Origin: Bacteroidetes bacterium 24-39-8 | GTDB taxonomy: Bacteria > Bacteroidota > Bacteroidia > Chitinophagales > Chitinophagaceae | Assembly (NCBI GenBank): GCA_002256765.1 | Contig: NCHJ01000014.1 | Location: 1-37,908, forward strand | Reading direction: 5' to 3' | Length of the DNA stretch: 37,908 bases | Notes under the pieces: generated by a model | Told to the model about the DNA's origin: nothing | What the model saw: the letters and a program-made list of their open reading frames with translations, nothing else | Database searches by the model: none | Shown here: in pieces, positions 31,529 through 35,732 of the stretch | How the letters are laid out: each line of letters starts with the position of its first letter | Numbering within the stretch: the first letter of the stretch is position 1 | Program-made: the position numbers and the translations under genes

Positions 31529-31723
31529 GGATTGTTGTGTAAAGTTATACAATACGATAATTTATTCAAAATGAATCTTTCATAAATGATTCTTTATAGC
31601 GGAACTAAATAAAAAGTAATTAACTATTAATGAATAAATAAATATGGGGACTTGAAAAAATCTAGTATAAAATCGTTTCACTTAAGGTAGATTCAATTTA
31701 CGTTTGCGTAAAGTGGATATTGA

Positions 31724-31942
31724 TTTTTCGGAAAAAATATTTTAGTCCATTTTTATACTAGAACAAGTATAAATCAGGGGTGTCTATTTTATACTAGAAC
31801 GAGTATAATCTTAGGGAGGGTTTTTATACTTGAACGAGTATAATTTTTGGAAGCATTTTATACTAGAACGTGTATAAAATAGAAGGGGTGTTTTTATACT
31901 AGAACAAGTATAAAAATGAGGCGTTTTTGAAATCTCGAAAAA
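31724..31942 (+). repeat. MITE-like palindrome-array element, copy 1 (five units)
   Basis: The element is bounded by TTTTTCG (31724-31730) and CGAAAAA (31936-31942). Inside are five 18-bp palindromes of the type TATACTAGAACAAGTATA at 31754-31771, 31790-31807, 31825-31842, 31859-31876 and 31895-31912, starting 36, 35, 34 and 36 bases apart. The 16-18 base spacers follow a common pattern: A-rich, then GG(G)G, then a T-run. A reverse-oriented sister copy lies at 35516-35700, with similar ends and partly identical spacers. A lone half-site (TCTAGTATAAAA) lies just upstream, near 31661. No coding frame is present. Confidence 0.85.
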
Positions 31943-31946
31943 CAGT

Positions 31947-31975
31947 ACCCACCCCGGCCTGTGGTCACCCCTCCC
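31947..31975 (-). repeat. GC-rich dispersed element, copy 1
   Basis: The 29 bases match the reverse complement of 34080-34108 at 27 positions. Key parts are ACCCACCCCGGCC and CACCCCTCCC. It lies directly inside the first palindrome-array element. The second copy sits between convergent genes, so this may be a small extragenic repeat family. Confidence 0.6.
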
Positions 31976-32074
31976 GTGAACGGTAGGGGAACTAAATGTG
32001 AATTTGAACAGCGGTCACCCTTCCCGTAAACGGTAGGACAATTTTCTTTGATCTACAATCGTTAGGGGAACTAA
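31963..32074. repeat. Direct repeats of about 28 bp at a 50-bp step after the sensor kinase gene
   Basis: GGTCACCC(C/T)TCCCGT(G/A)AACGGTAGG occurs at 31963-31988 and 32013-32037, about 90% identical. The tail (C)G(G/T)TAGGGGAACTAA occurs at 31981-31995 and again at 32060-32074, ending directly before the stop codon of the kinase gene. The units hold short dyads around CCCGT/ACGG. No gene lies between 31528 and 32074. Confidence 0.6.
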
Positions 32075-33394
32075 TTAGGTTAATGGAATTTCAATGGTAA
32101 ACGCTGAGCCTTTGCCAACGGTACTTTCAACGCGGATTTTGCCTTTGTGTGCATCAATCACTGTTTTCACATAACTCATACCAAGACCAAAACCTTTTAC
32201 ATTGTGAAGGTTGCCTGTGTGTGCGCGATAGAATTTTTCAAAGACGCGTTTCACGGTCTCCTTGCTCATACCAATTCCATTGTCTTCAATGCGAATCACT
32301 AATTGCTTATTGGTGCTATGCGTAGAGATTTTTAATTCAATGGTTTCTTTTGAATATTTAATGGCGTTGTCTACTAAATTAGAGAGCAGATTACTAAAGT
32401 GAACGGGGTCTACACTGGTCAGATCATTCTTGGCATTGTAGAGCTTAGTCACTTGACCATTCTTGTTTTGTAATTGCAATTGGTAATTCTCCAATACTTG
32501 ATCAAGCATATCGTGCATATGCGTTTCTTCACGCTTTAATTCCAATTCTTGTTTTTCCATCAAAGCCGCTTGCAGAATGGTTTCTACGTGCTTGTTCATG
32601 CGAATATTTTCTTCCTTGATAATCCCACTGAAGTAGTTCATCTTCTCAGGATTGTTGCGCACTTTTTCATTGCGTATAGCGTCTACTGCTAAAGAAATTG
32701 TGGCCAAAGGTGTTTTAAATTCGTGGGTCATGTTATTGATAAAATCGCTCTTAATTTCAGAGAGTTTTTTCTGATTCAAGAGTGACCTTACTGTAACATA
32801 GAATGCCGTAATAATGATGATCATAAAGACAGCAGCTACTATAATAATCCATCGCAGCGATGCCCATACCTGTTCTTCATAATTGGGAATGATGACAATG
32901 AGTTGTTCGTAAGAAGCCGCATCGTCCAAACTATTTTCTGAATTTGGAAAAATGGGAATTACAATTTGTTTGTTGTTGATGGTATCTTTAAAAGCAGTTT
33001 CAAAATCCGAAGACATCATTTCTAATTCTGCCGTGGGCGATATAATGGCAAACTCAAATTTCAAGTTACTCCACTCCTTAGTCACAAATACTTTCTCCAG
33101 TTTTACTTTAACTTCTTGGGCAGAGAATTTTTCATCAATGGTTGGTGGCTTTAATAAGCGTAAGTGGAAACCAGAATTAAAACCAATGCCGCCTTGACGG
33201 GGGCGCATAATTTTTGCACCATAAACGGATTTGTACAAATCCTCCGCTACCCTATATCCTTCAGAACTGATTTTATTGTAGAGCTGCACTTCTCTCACTT
33301 CTAAGAGGTTTTTTAACCAAGAGCCCTGCAAGAGTAGCAATCCTAGCAAAGAGAGAGAAATCAGTACGATGATGACAGGGAAAGTTCGCTTCAT
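32075..33394 (-). CDS. Sensor histidine kinase, orphan (RprX-like layout)
   Basis: 439 residues from the ATG at 33394 (a GTG two codons earlier is possible). Membrane helices at about 6-23 and 182-202 enclose a periplasmic domain of about 155 residues. There is no obvious HAMP domain. HisKA carries NMTHEFKTPL with the acceptor His at 224. HATPase_c shows SNLVDNAIKYS (N-box), DNGIGMS (G1) and GFGLGMSYV (G2), so it should be active. The plan recalls Bacteroides RprX, which pairs with regulator RprY, but here no response regulator is adjacent: the repeat region 31528-32074 occupies the downstream side. A TATATTTG box lies 5 bases before the ATG. Confidence 0.9.
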   Translation of the reverse strand: MKRTFPVIIVLISLSLLGLLLLQGSWLKNLLEVREVQLYNKISSEGYRVAEDLYKSVYGAKIMRPRQGGIGFNSGFHLRLLKPPTIDEKFSAQEVKVKLEKVFVTKEWSNLKFEFAIISPTAELEMMSSDFETAFKDTINNKQIVIPIFPNSENSLDDAASYEQLIVIIPNYEEQVWASLRWIIIVAAVFMIIIITAFYVTVRSLLNQKKLSEIKSDFINNMTHEFKTPLATISLAVDAIRNEKVRNNPEKMNYFSGIIKEENIRMNKHVETILQAALMEKQELELKREETHMHDMLDQVLENYQLQLQNKNGQVTKLYNAKNDLTSVDPVHFSNLLSNLVDNAIKYSKETIELKISTHSTNKQLVIRIEDNGIGMSKETVKRVFEKFYRAHTGNLHNVKGFGLGMSYVKTVIDAHKGKIRVESTVGKGSAFTIEIPLT

Positions 33395-33399
33395 TGACA

Positions 33400-33407
33400 C
33401 AAATATA
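33400..33407 (-). promoter_or_regulatory. -7 promoter box of the orphan kinase gene
   Basis: TATATTTG on the minus strand is an exact match to the Bacteroidota -7 consensus TAnnTTTG. It ends 5 bases before the ATG, so transcription would start at or next to the start codon. No good TTTG lies about 20 bases further upstream. Confidence 0.4.
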
Positions 33408-33482
33408 ATGGATTGAAATATTGGCTGCGCTTCGTTTTGCGCTATTTATCAGCATTTTAACGGCAAAATGTGGATTGTTTTT

Positions 33483-33515
33483 TTTGTAAAATATCCCCTC
33501 CTTTTACTAATTTTT
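33483..33515 (+). promoter_or_regulatory. Probable Bacteroidota-type promoter of the yqgE gene
   Basis: TTTG (33483-33486) and TAATTTTT (33508-33515) are 21 bases apart, close to the TTTG-N19/21-TAnnTTTG consensus. The -7 box ends 4 bases before the ATG at 33520, which implies a leaderless or nearly leaderless mRNA. Confidence 0.4.
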
Positions 33516-33519
33516 CCGC

Positions 33520-34068
33520 ATGGAAGCACCCAGTTCAGGCATTTTGCTCATTTCGGATCCCTTTTTGAAGGACCCAAATTTTCAGCGCACGGTGATCTTG
33601 CTCTGCGAACATATGGTAGAGGGTAGTTTTGGTTTTGTTTTGAACAAGCCCCATAAAGGCGTGTTGGGCGATTATGTGGCGGATCTAGAAGGTTGCCAAT
33701 TCCCCGTTTTCAAAGGTGGGCCTGTTCAAAAAGACAGTATTCATTTTATCCATCGCTGCCCAGACCAATTAGGGGGCGTTGAAATTATTGACGGTATTTA
33801 CTGGGGAGGCGATTTTGTGGAAGTAGTCAAGGGCATCAAGACAGAAGAGATAGACCAATCAGAGATCCGATTCTTTATAGGCTATAGTGGCTGGGGCGAG
33901 GGACAACTTGAAGGCGAGCTGGAAGAAAAAAGCTGGATTGTCCGCGATGGGAATAAACGCCTGATTTTTATGAAACAGGTAGACCAAATCTGGAAAGAAT
34001 CTCTCAAGGACCTTGGTGGTGAATATCAGCAAATGCCCAACTATCCCCTGGACCCGCAACTAAACTAA
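33520..34068 (+). CDS. yqgE: YqgE/AlgH family protein
   Basis: 182 residues, the usual size. The N-terminal pattern GILLISDPFLKDPNFQRTVILLCEH and GSFGFVLNKP identify the family; FKGGPVQKD and GYSGWGEGQLEGEL are its later motifs. AlgH was named for effects on alginate genes in Pseudomonas, but the molecular function is unknown; the fold is compact and cytoplasmic. It is divergent from the kinase gene and convergent with the ATPase gene, with a double hairpin in the gap. Confidence 0.93.
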   Translation: MEAPSSGILLISDPFLKDPNFQRTVILLCEHMVEGSFGFVLNKPHKGVLGDYVADLEGCQFPVFKGGPVQKDSIHFIHRCPDQLGGVEIIDGIYWGGDFVEVVKGIKTEEIDQSEIRFFIGYSGWGEGQLEGELEEKSWIVRDGNKRLIFMKQVDQIWKESLKDLGGEYQQMPNYPLDPQLN

Positions 34069-34071
34069 CAT

Positions 34072-34108
34072 CCCCTCTTGGGAGGGGTGGCCGCAGGCCG
34101 GGGTGGGT
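34072..34108. terminator. Double hairpin between convergent genes (GC-rich dispersed element, copy 2)
   Basis: CCCCTC-TTGG-GAGGGG (34072-34087) and GGCC-GCA-GGCC (34089-34099) form two adjoining hairpins starting 3 bases after the yqgE stop and ending before the stop of the convergent ATPase gene (34116). Positions 34080-34108 match the reverse complement of 31947-31975 at 27 of 29 positions. It may work as a bidirectional terminator, though T-runs are lacking. Confidence 0.55.
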
Positions 34109-34115
34109 AATAAAT

Positions 34116-35375
34116 TTATTGCCACAGCATATAAAAAGGCACGGCCCAAAGGTTAGTACCAAAGGGGACTACTTCTTTTCCTGCGTATAAAACAATACCT
34201 CCTATAAAATCCTTACCCGTAAGTTCTGCAAACACTTGAATACCCTTAAAGTCATTCATAGAAAGTGATTCAGATTTCTTTACTTCAATGGCAAAAACAG
34301 ATCCATCAGGTTTCTCCAATATAAAATCAACTTCTTTACCATCGCTGGTTCTAAAATGATACAACCCTGTATTAATCTTAGAATTATTTAATTGCTTTAA
34401 AATTTCTGTAGCTATATAGTTCTCTAGAATATGTTTAAATAGATCAGGTTTATTAATGGCAATATCTGAAAGGCTAAGGTCTAACATATGACAGAGCAGG
34501 CATGTATCAATCATATACCCCTTTGGAGCTTTAACCAATCGTTTGCCAATATTTCTATGCCATGGATTAATATTAAATGTCAGAAACATCATTTGCAAAA
34601 TATGGCGATAGGTTTTTGTAGTAACCGATGTTAGTCCTATTTCACGGGCAATATCTGAATCATTCAATAATCCTCCGGCCCTTGCGGCCAAGATGCGTAA
34701 GAGCTGAGGTAAAACAGCACTTTTTTCTAATTCAGCAATTTGTTTAACGTCTCTTTGAAGTATGGTTGTAATATAACTATCCATCCATATTGTTCTTTCG
34801 GCTTCTGGCTTTTGATGAATTTCAGGGAACCCAGCTAATTGTATTGCATCTACTAATTTAATACCTCTATCAGAAATGCCATTGAAGTCAAATTGCATCA
34901 ATCGCGCAAGCCCGTTACCCATTCCTTGACTAGCTTCTGCAGTTGTAAATGGGTATAAAGTAAGTACGTTCATCCTACCTACTAAAGGGTCTGACAATTT
35001 TGGTAAAGACAGAATATTTGCAGATCCTGTTAACAAGAAATTTCCATTAATTAGCCCTTTGTCCGCCAATCTATCTTCATCAACCACCACTTTCAAAGCC
35101 CTAAAAAGATCCGGAACCATTTGAACTTCATCAATTATCAAAGGTTTTGGATAGGCTTCCAAAAAAGCTTCTGGAGCAGCAGTTGCCGCTGCCATTGCCG
35201 TGGGCCTGTCAAAAGTAACATAGGAGGCAGAAGCTCCATCGCGTCCAATTTGGGATGCAATTTGGTGAACCAAAGTGCTTTTACCAGTCTGTCTTGCCCC
35301 ATTTAAAAACACCACGGGGCTTAGTCTTAAAGCCTCTAAAAGTTGGGGTTTGATATGACGGGGAATTCTATTCAC
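34116..35375 (-). CDS. AAA ATPase with DUF4143 domain (first of two)
   Basis: 419 residues starting with GTG at 35375; an in-frame TGA upstream and no nearby ATG make this start likely. Walker A GARQTGKST is at 26-34 and Walker B LIIDEVQ at 79-85. A C-terminal DUF4143 region ends in a nuclease-like segment, HFRTSDGKEVDFILEKPDG followed by AIEVKKS, which has the D/E-x-K spacing of PD-(D/E)xK folds. Function is unknown; these ATPases are common, often multi-copy and horizontally spread. It lies between convergent yqgE and the second palindrome-array element. A different member of the same family starts at 36794. Confidence 0.88.
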   Translation of the reverse strand: MNRIPRHIKPQLLEALRLSPVVFLNGARQTGKSTLVHQIASQIGRDGASASYVTFDRPTAMAAATAAPEAFLEAYPKPLIIDEVQMVPDLFRALKVVVDEDRLADKGLINGNFLLTGSANILSLPKLSDPLVGRMNVLTLYPFTTAEASQGMGNGLARLMQFDFNGISDRGIKLVDAIQLAGFPEIHQKPEAERTIWMDSYITTILQRDVKQIAELEKSAVLPQLLRILAARAGGLLNDSDIAREIGLTSVTTKTYRHILQMMFLTFNINPWHRNIGKRLVKAPKGYMIDTCLLCHMLDLSLSDIAINKPDLFKHILENYIATEILKQLNNSKINTGLYHFRTSDGKEVDFILEKPDGSVFAIEVKKSESLSMNDFKGIQVFAELTGKDFIGGIVLYAGKEVVPFGTNLWAVPFYMLWQ

Positions 35376-35379
35376 TTTG

Positions 35380-35387
35380 CAAATATA
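35380..35387 (-). promoter_or_regulatory. -7 promoter box of the first DUF4143 ATPase gene
   Basis: TATATTTG (minus strand) ends 4 bases before the GTG start. TTTA, one base off TTTG, lies 20 bases upstream of it. The closeness to the start codon again implies a leaderless transcript. Confidence 0.45.
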
Positions 35388-35515
35388 AGCTATTGTTTTA
35401 AATAATTTAAAGAATCATTTTAAATTTGCAAGAAATTGGCGCCGTTCCGGGAGGGTGCACCAATCAGTGAGAAGTGACTCTAGGACTGAGTATGTTAGAG
35501 GCAAAACCGTACTTG

Positions 35516-35700
35516 CTTTTTCGATTTTTAAAAAAGCCCCGTTTTTATACTTGTTCTAGTATAAAAACGACCCTTCTATTTTATACACGTTCTAGTATAA
35601 AAATCACCCAAGAATTATACTTGTTCTAGTATAAAAAAATACCCCCTGATTTATACTTGTTCTAGTATAAAAACGGCCTTAAATTTAATTTCTGAAAAAG
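35516..35700 (-). repeat. MITE-like palindrome-array element, copy 2 (four units, inverted)
   Basis: The element is bounded by CTTTTTCG (35516-35523) and TGAAAAAG (35693-35700). Four 18-bp palindromes of the type TATACTTGTTCTAGTATA lie at 35546-35563, 35582-35599, 35616-35633 and 35652-35669 (steps 36, 34, 36). Read on the minus strand it aligns with copy 1 along its whole length: the left end (TTTTTCnGAAA), the first spacer (AAATCAGGGG), the variant unit with ACGTG followed by TATAAAATAGAAGGG, and the right end (TCGAAAAA). Copy 1 has one extra internal unit. Confidence 0.85.
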
Positions 35701-35732
35701 TATATACACTTGAGGGATTAATAGACATTGCA

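Follow-up and report, generated by a model that had tools for sequence, protein, structure and literature searches.

In this study we describe a family of intergenic repeats that is represented by two elements in contig NCHJ01000014.1 of Bacteroidetes bacterium 24-39-8 (Chitinophagaceae), whose whole analysed stretch of 37,908 nt is called here the window. We consider that they belong to a clade-specific modular intergenic repeat of the BOX/BrickBuilt kind, in which 18-bp palindromic units would serve as operator-like sites for a dimeric DNA-binding protein, a reading to which we give a probability of about 0.62. It builds on the anatomy of the arrays, their dispersal, their restriction to one clade, the change in unit number between relatives, the conservation of the palindrome arms and the presence of the same palindrome at ribbon-helix-helix (RHH)-like genes of phages.

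Element 1 (31718-31947, with its G-rich strand on the forward strand) is formed by a leader end (31718-31753), five units and a tail end (31913-31947). Its units are TATACTAGAACAAGTATA (31754-31771), TATACTAGAACGAGTATA (31790-31807), TATACTTGAACGAGTATA (31825-31842), TATACTAGAACGTGTATA (31859-31876) and again TATACTAGAACAAGTATA (31895-31912), and their start-to-start distances are 36, 35, 34 and 36 bp across 31754-31912. Element 2 (35510-35706, G-rich on the reverse strand) also has a leader and a tail, and holds four units, namely TATACTAGAACAAGTATA (35652-35669), TATACTAGAACAAGTATA (35616-35633), TATACTAGAACGTGTATA (35582-35599) and TATACTAGAACAAGTATA (35546-35563), spaced by 36, 34 and 36 bp between 35546 and 35669. 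A first-pass annotation, made from the letters alone, had reported five and four TATACTWGAACNNGTATA-type palindromes with a period of 34-36 bp; these positions bear it out, as do the 19 matches to the 18-mer (up to three mismatches) found in the window against 0.63 expected, a count in which one palindrome may score on both strands and which none of 100 shuffles reached. Read on the G-rich strand, the spacers begin as aatcagggg.., atcttaggg.., atttttgg.. and aaatagaagggg.. in element 1 and as aatcaggggg.., attcttggg.. and aaatagaaggg.. in element 2, an order which agrees with the earlier claim of two inverted elements that are alike from end to end and differ by one unit. Their ends, set by alignment with other copies at about 31718-31947 and about 35510-35706, lie slightly further out than first drawn, the elements themselves being real. 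The GC content is 28% in element 1 and 27% in element 2, against 39% for the window.

We found that the element is dispersed over the genome and kept in relatives. The assembly of the strain itself (3.4 Mb, 212 contigs, 86% complete) contains 50 units with at most one mismatch, in 15 elements by our grouping, and none in the control with the reversed pattern. Among named public genomes, the two-unit pattern gave 22 loci in four assemblies, including Chitinophagaceae bacterium BSSC1 (G160), and 68, 32, 20 and 12 units were counted in these four, with one control match in all. Also, an arm-only pattern with any loop was present in 5 of 147 genus members, and of 397 genomes (147 from the genus, and our own counted in), 5 contain a loop-free pair pattern, with no control match; from matching contig coordinates, the five positive genomes are taken to be our own plus the same four assemblies. 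In two gene trees, one with five of the array genomes and the other with four, these genomes group as a single clade (support 100/100). In BSSC1, 12 of 14 elements by our grouping lie on contig C2, which makes up 2.02 Mb of the 4.3-Mb assembly (post hoc p 0.003). Copies of element 1 had no match in phage or plasmid records. In viral contigs, 95 stretches carry the unit pattern and 5 the arm pattern (of the former, 80 were listed with a single match apiece, two of these on the same contig), and no leader-array-tail element was seen among these stretches.

On the G-rich strand, arrays follow the order leader, unit, first spacer of the aatcaGGGGGttctattt type, units, last spacer of the aaatagaaGGGccgtttt type, unit and tail. 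The unit is an 18-bp palindrome, TATAC-N8-GTATA, the spacers are mostly 16-18 nt long, and the leader and tail ends take about 36 nt each. The conserved end reaches about 36 nt past the last unit, to GAAAAACAAGTA; the element ends are TACTTGTTTTTC/GAAAAACAAGTA, and the short terminal inverted repeats that had been noted in the window are present as short inverted ends across copies. Two distinct end modules with a variable number of inner modules are found in many intergenic places. Among 40 arrays, 15 have three units and 14 have four, followed by five (5 arrays), six (2), seven (2) and eight (2), none having two; a further unit with a changed arm is concealed in two arrays, and single-unit elements occur in three of the four other genomes. 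The spacings alternate between 36 and 34 bp, with 55, 58 or 62 bp in special cases. Once each array is turned to its G-rich side, G exceeds C in 165 of the 208 spacer and end segments of the 40 arrays, C exceeds G in 22 and both are equal in 21; the summed G skew is 519, against 253 (standard deviation 29) under random flips, a test that allows for the turning. Arrays L033 and L039, at contig ends, were excluded from the analyses of end conservation, target duplication, flank swap and polarity, the one-unit L041:4104 from that of polarity, and the longer versions of genome G207 from flank swap and polarity. These longer versions (L099:2448-3012, L102:7940-8157, L103:2599-2884, L039 and L041:4104, mostly of G207) carry an inner motif like CAAAGGCGGC..TTTTCTCCGAGATTT beside the unit, and filler between the ends. 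Additionally, (GAAGAGT)n-like microsatellites adjoin arrays on one or both sides in L032, L037, L040, L041, L052 and L060.

The comparison of flanks indicates that many arrays of different genomes occupy the same place, and at sites common to several species the flanks are mostly about 80-92% identical. The unit number differs at one such site: at the place of element 1, our genome has five units, BSSC1 eight and G199 five, one of them altered in an arm; G207 keeps two end units, its inner units being swapped for another tandem repeat. At the place of element 2, a one-unit version with a different loop (TATACTCGATTGAGTATA) and the same arms is seen in G207, a relative detected through its similar neighbouring genes, and G199 has neither the element nor the DUF4143 gene; pairing is then not a trait of the family. 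At two other sites, some of the five genomes have the element and others lack it, with further changes in the flanking DNA. The arms are the most constant part. In 12 orthologous pairs, chosen by us, differences amount to 0 of 419 positions in the arms TATAC..GTATA, 18 of 336 in loops, 79 of 642 in spacers and 87 of 956 in ends. One arm change was found in 168 units and one in each of the two units concealed in long spacers, that is, three changes in 170 units and about 1,700 arm positions, numbers which are biased by the retrieval of 22 loci with the two-unit pattern and of the others with one unit; minus the units demanded by the searches (62 by our arithmetic), arms are intact in 105 of 108. 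The loop of the first unit of L062:2247 is inverted relative to its orthologues L036 and L096, with flanks alike. Mixed loop orientations are also seen within arrays L104 and L098.

The same palindrome accompanies a phage gene family. In viral loci L260 and L195, with neighbouring palindromes, the small adjoining open reading frame (ORF) matches phrog_13890 (E 2e-20 and 2e-9), and RHH models score below cut-off for both. An RHH motif drawn from L195 and L260 and scanned over the 85 viral loci listed (L220 and L321 being taken from the contig name) adds L269, again beside the palindrome; there, three palindromes precede the gene and TATACTTGTTCAAGTATA is one base off the array unit. Among the 85 viral loci listed for the palindrome, at least 4 show it next to a phrog_13890-type gene. 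The RHH-like protein had no tblastn match in phage or plasmid records. For the reverse test, 41 phrog_13890 loci were collected by protein similarity and the four already seen were set aside. In the other 37, TATAC-N8-GTATA lies within 250 bp upstream in 23 and ATAC-N8-GTAT in 27, the reversed pattern in none, and the same loci have 30 strict palindromes in 9.9 kb upstream (our count from the list) versus 7 in the remaining 85.6 kb. After similar loci were merged, the strict form is present in 16 of the 28 distinct loci and the relaxed one in 19, against 0 of 28 for the reversed control, and in this sense the array unit equals the palindrome found upstream of an RHH-like gene family. The palindrome at these genes reads TATACT-N6-AGTATA, and of 29 distances between neighbouring palindromes, measured with two arm changes allowed, 10 are 32-33 bp and the others range from 14 to 48. 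Judged by this likeness, the array unit looks like an operator-like site of an RHH-type dimer. The phrog_13890 genes themselves (L260, L195, L269, L297-L337), whose function is given as unknown in PHROGs, look like autoregulated RHH genes, and an autoregulated RHH regulator is a possible function for this family.

The explanation that we favour is that the element spread to about 15 places in each genome in the ancestors of five related species, and that many copies were then inherited at fixed sites while arrays gained or lost units and single loops flipped. The arms would have been kept constant by selection because a dimeric DNA-binding protein, in all likelihood one with an RHH fold (Arc/HicB-like), would bind each unit as an operator-like site. 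The array would then act as a docking platform with several binding sites, placed between genes and in many cases at 3' gene ends. Several observations weigh against this proposal. The phrog_13890-type proteins score below the cut-offs of the Pfam RHH models (Arc, HicB, TacA1, RHH_1), and a profile search of the PDB gave nothing significant (best E 0.085, Arc 0.39-0.56), because of which the RHH fold is a reading only. No phrog_13890-type gene appeared in one motif scan, which covered a small part of each of the five array genomes. The centres of the phage sites are more symmetric than those of the array units. Some orthologous sites lack the element, so that no single copy can be essential; the arm statistics carry the retrieval bias mentioned above, and specific RNA hairpins would preserve the arms equally well.

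Regarding genomic context, arrays sit between genes, often at orthologous sites. The orientation of neighbours could be classed for 38 of 52 sites (a called gene of at least 120 aa on both sides, with orthologues counted separately), of which 17 are convergent gaps, against 19 of 124 controls (p=0.0003), and 7 are divergent; element 1 counts as convergent only because the 99-aa higA is left out of account. Two arrays are overlapped by ORFs of about 100 aa, and in L096 a 173-aa ORF extends 45 nt into the array. A common regulon was considered and rejected, as 20 neighbouring proteins, 15 of them from loci outside the window, have no common theme.

A tentative and rather unlikely extension is that the arrays are chromosomal operator platforms which adopted the operator of a phage RHH repressor. 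They would dock a resident relative of it as gene-end boundaries, or act as a sponge which may capture an incoming or resident phage repressor and tilt the lysis-lysogeny or copy decision; loop inversions may then record hairpin extrusion in the living cell. We find it unlikely that the arrays are plain miniature inverted-repeat transposable elements (MITEs), selfish non-autonomous transposons with palindromes as transposase-binding sites and an autonomous partner lost or unseen. The dispersed copies with common ends and unrelated flanking genes, the low GC content, the convergent excess as reported for BOX, and the longer versions with their inner motif and filler would fit such an origin, and the filler of L099 has a 39-aa frame like an IS30 transposase end (9 of 22 residues identical). 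However, this frame has no NCBIfam or Pfam match, and the sole IS30 found, in G195, has unrelated ends and was rejected as partner, Y1_Tnp and IS30 being the only families searched. Moreover, no target-duplication signal was detected (45 elements tested of 47 listed, boundaries anchored on the consensus; observed mean 2.71, permuted 2.88), a 2-bp duplication being below resolution, no clean empty site was found at the compared orthologous sites, and sites are common to species with divergent flanks. From the suggestion of a mobile element in the first-pass annotation there remain the dispersed copies, the conserved ends, the variable unit number and the presence in relatives; neither a duplication signal nor a clean empty site nor a REP-associated tyrosine transposase (RAYT) was seen that would speak for mobility.

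The same annotation had proposed either a protein-binding array or a multi-hairpin RNA. The latter, as a bidirectional transcription terminator or a 3'-end stabiliser, seems to us improbable, despite the convergent excess and some favourable folding. For four single-unit elements, both strands gave more stable folds than shuffled sequence (z from -2.5 to -6.9 over 8 folds), and three of the four, L189 being the exception, form one long hairpin with U tracts; whole elements also fold better than shuffles (z -4.2, -6.6 and -4.5, with only -1.5 for a 149-nt part), and one terminator-like match, the sole one within the two window arrays, is formed by unit 4 of element 2 with its flanks (35570-35539, reverse strand). 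Within arrays, however, own flanks pair worse than swapped ones, both in 79 terminal contexts (mean -9.56 vs -11.91) and in 84 internal contexts (-7.48 vs -9.56), with 200 of 200 swaps lower in each case. Flank pairing over 182 unit contexts is above expectation at two offsets and below at others, the arms being fixed by the search expression. Fourteen three-unit arrays gave a covariation term of +0.13, and the compensatory changes expected in the stems of a structured RNA were two-sided at only 2 of 27 pairs. Covariation is nearly absent and therefore the DNA sequence itself seems to be selected, so that selection would act on the arms as DNA. Also against a terminator are the 7 of 38 classed arrays between divergent genes and the C87 site, where an ordinary terminator (by eye) lies upstream of the array and is retained in two species that lack the array. 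Rfam gave no match at gathering score in four loci, and its two matches in the window region are both below that score. Near-invariant arms, near-absent covariation and the palindromes of phage RHH-like genes then favour the protein-binding array over the RNA. A four-stranded G structure with the hairpins as loops would agree with the strand polarity, with a smallest multi-unit array of three units, equal to four G clusters, and with the first spacer, which holds a run of at least three G in 39 of the 40 arrays. Such runs are missing from many leaders (present in 11) and last spacers (21), reach 30 in tails, and number four or more in just 14 of the 40 arrays; the structure is not robust and we regard it as very hard to believe.

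Known systems place the operator-site proposal in perspective. BOX of Streptococcus pneumoniae (boxA-boxBn-boxC) is interspersed and modular, with predicted stem-loops, over-representation between convergent genes, 125 elements in one genome, and reported target duplications and similarity of its terminal inverted repeats to an insertion sequence (IS) (PMC3049150). Our element resembles it in the two end modules, the variable number of inner modules (which changes at one site) and the convergent excess, and is of the BOX-like kind without belonging to the pneumococcal family; in contrast, it numbers about 15 copies, its inner module is an operator-like palindrome, no duplication was seen, and its hosts belong to another phylum. 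The BrickBuilt MITE of Porphyromonas gingivalis consists of a leader, 23-nt tandem direct repeats without spacers, and a tail, with small inverted ends; 19 copies are described in one strain, always intergenic, with limited host range and no internal transposase remnant (PMC4596501). It shares with our element the phylum Bacteroidota, the leader-repeats-tail plan and the intergenic position, whereas 18-bp palindromes with 16-18 nt spacers take here the place of spacerless 23-nt direct repeats; the BrickBuilt ends resemble P. gingivalis IS ends, and no partner was found here among Y1_Tnp and IS30. The phrog_13890 sites are similar in their TATACT-N6-AGTATA palindrome, frequently present two or three times with 32-33 bp as the commonest distance, but they are few and lie upstream of the gene's own start, in a presumable operator role, unlike the long leader-tail arrays beside unrelated genes. 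The clustered extragenic palindromes REP/BIME vary in number and go with RAYT (PMC2817692, PMC3733652); they were discarded as an explanation, since Y1_Tnp (PF01797) is found in 0 of the 5 array genomes and our element has a dedicated leader and tail. HipB operators, TATCC-N8-GGATA with several sites side by side (PMC3376134), have the half-site geometry in common, but their half site is another and HipB is a helix-turn-helix protein, which makes them less likely as a model than RHH. TAACTGA arrays consist of direct heptamers (PMC4679880). The open-licence literature searched, PMC5771137 included, yielded no description of this element; the view that nothing described has this structure holds for the sequence within that literature, while the leader-repeats-tail plan is known from BOX and BrickBuilt.

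The genes named as neighbours of the two elements, a HisKA/HATPase kinase, an AlgH-like (YqgE) protein and a DUF4143/AAA_14 protein, were confirmed by Pfam. Other features of the region include a HigA-family antitoxin gene (TIGR02607; 31177-31476, reverse strand) with no adjoining HigB gene; a HigB-like ORF (PF05015, L094:1228-1605) is kept at the higA place in BSSC1 and a similar one, by eye, in outgroup G175. A GC-rich repeat, CACCCCGGCCTGCGGCCACCCCTCCC, has two copies of opposite orientation at 31950-31975 (forward) and 34080-34105 (reverse); the loci of BSSC1 (114 kb) and G207 (49 kb) contain 4 and 2 matches, and the outgroup loci (58 kb) none. Direct repeats GGTCACCCCTCCCGTGAACGGTAGGGGAACTAA adjoin element 1 (31963-32074), similar ones being found at the corresponding place of G207. 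In the window, 1409-2182 and 2214-2987 encode a tandem pair of bestrophin-like membrane proteins.

With this element, the known modular leader-repeat-tail elements gain a member built on an operator-like palindrome that hardly varies. Additionally, the repeat is tied to a named small-protein family, which provides a concrete hypothesis: an RHH gene common to the five genomes and missing from the 142 searched genus mates. If this were true, an interspersed repeat could also be a fixed array of repressor sites, beyond transposon debris or RNA structures.

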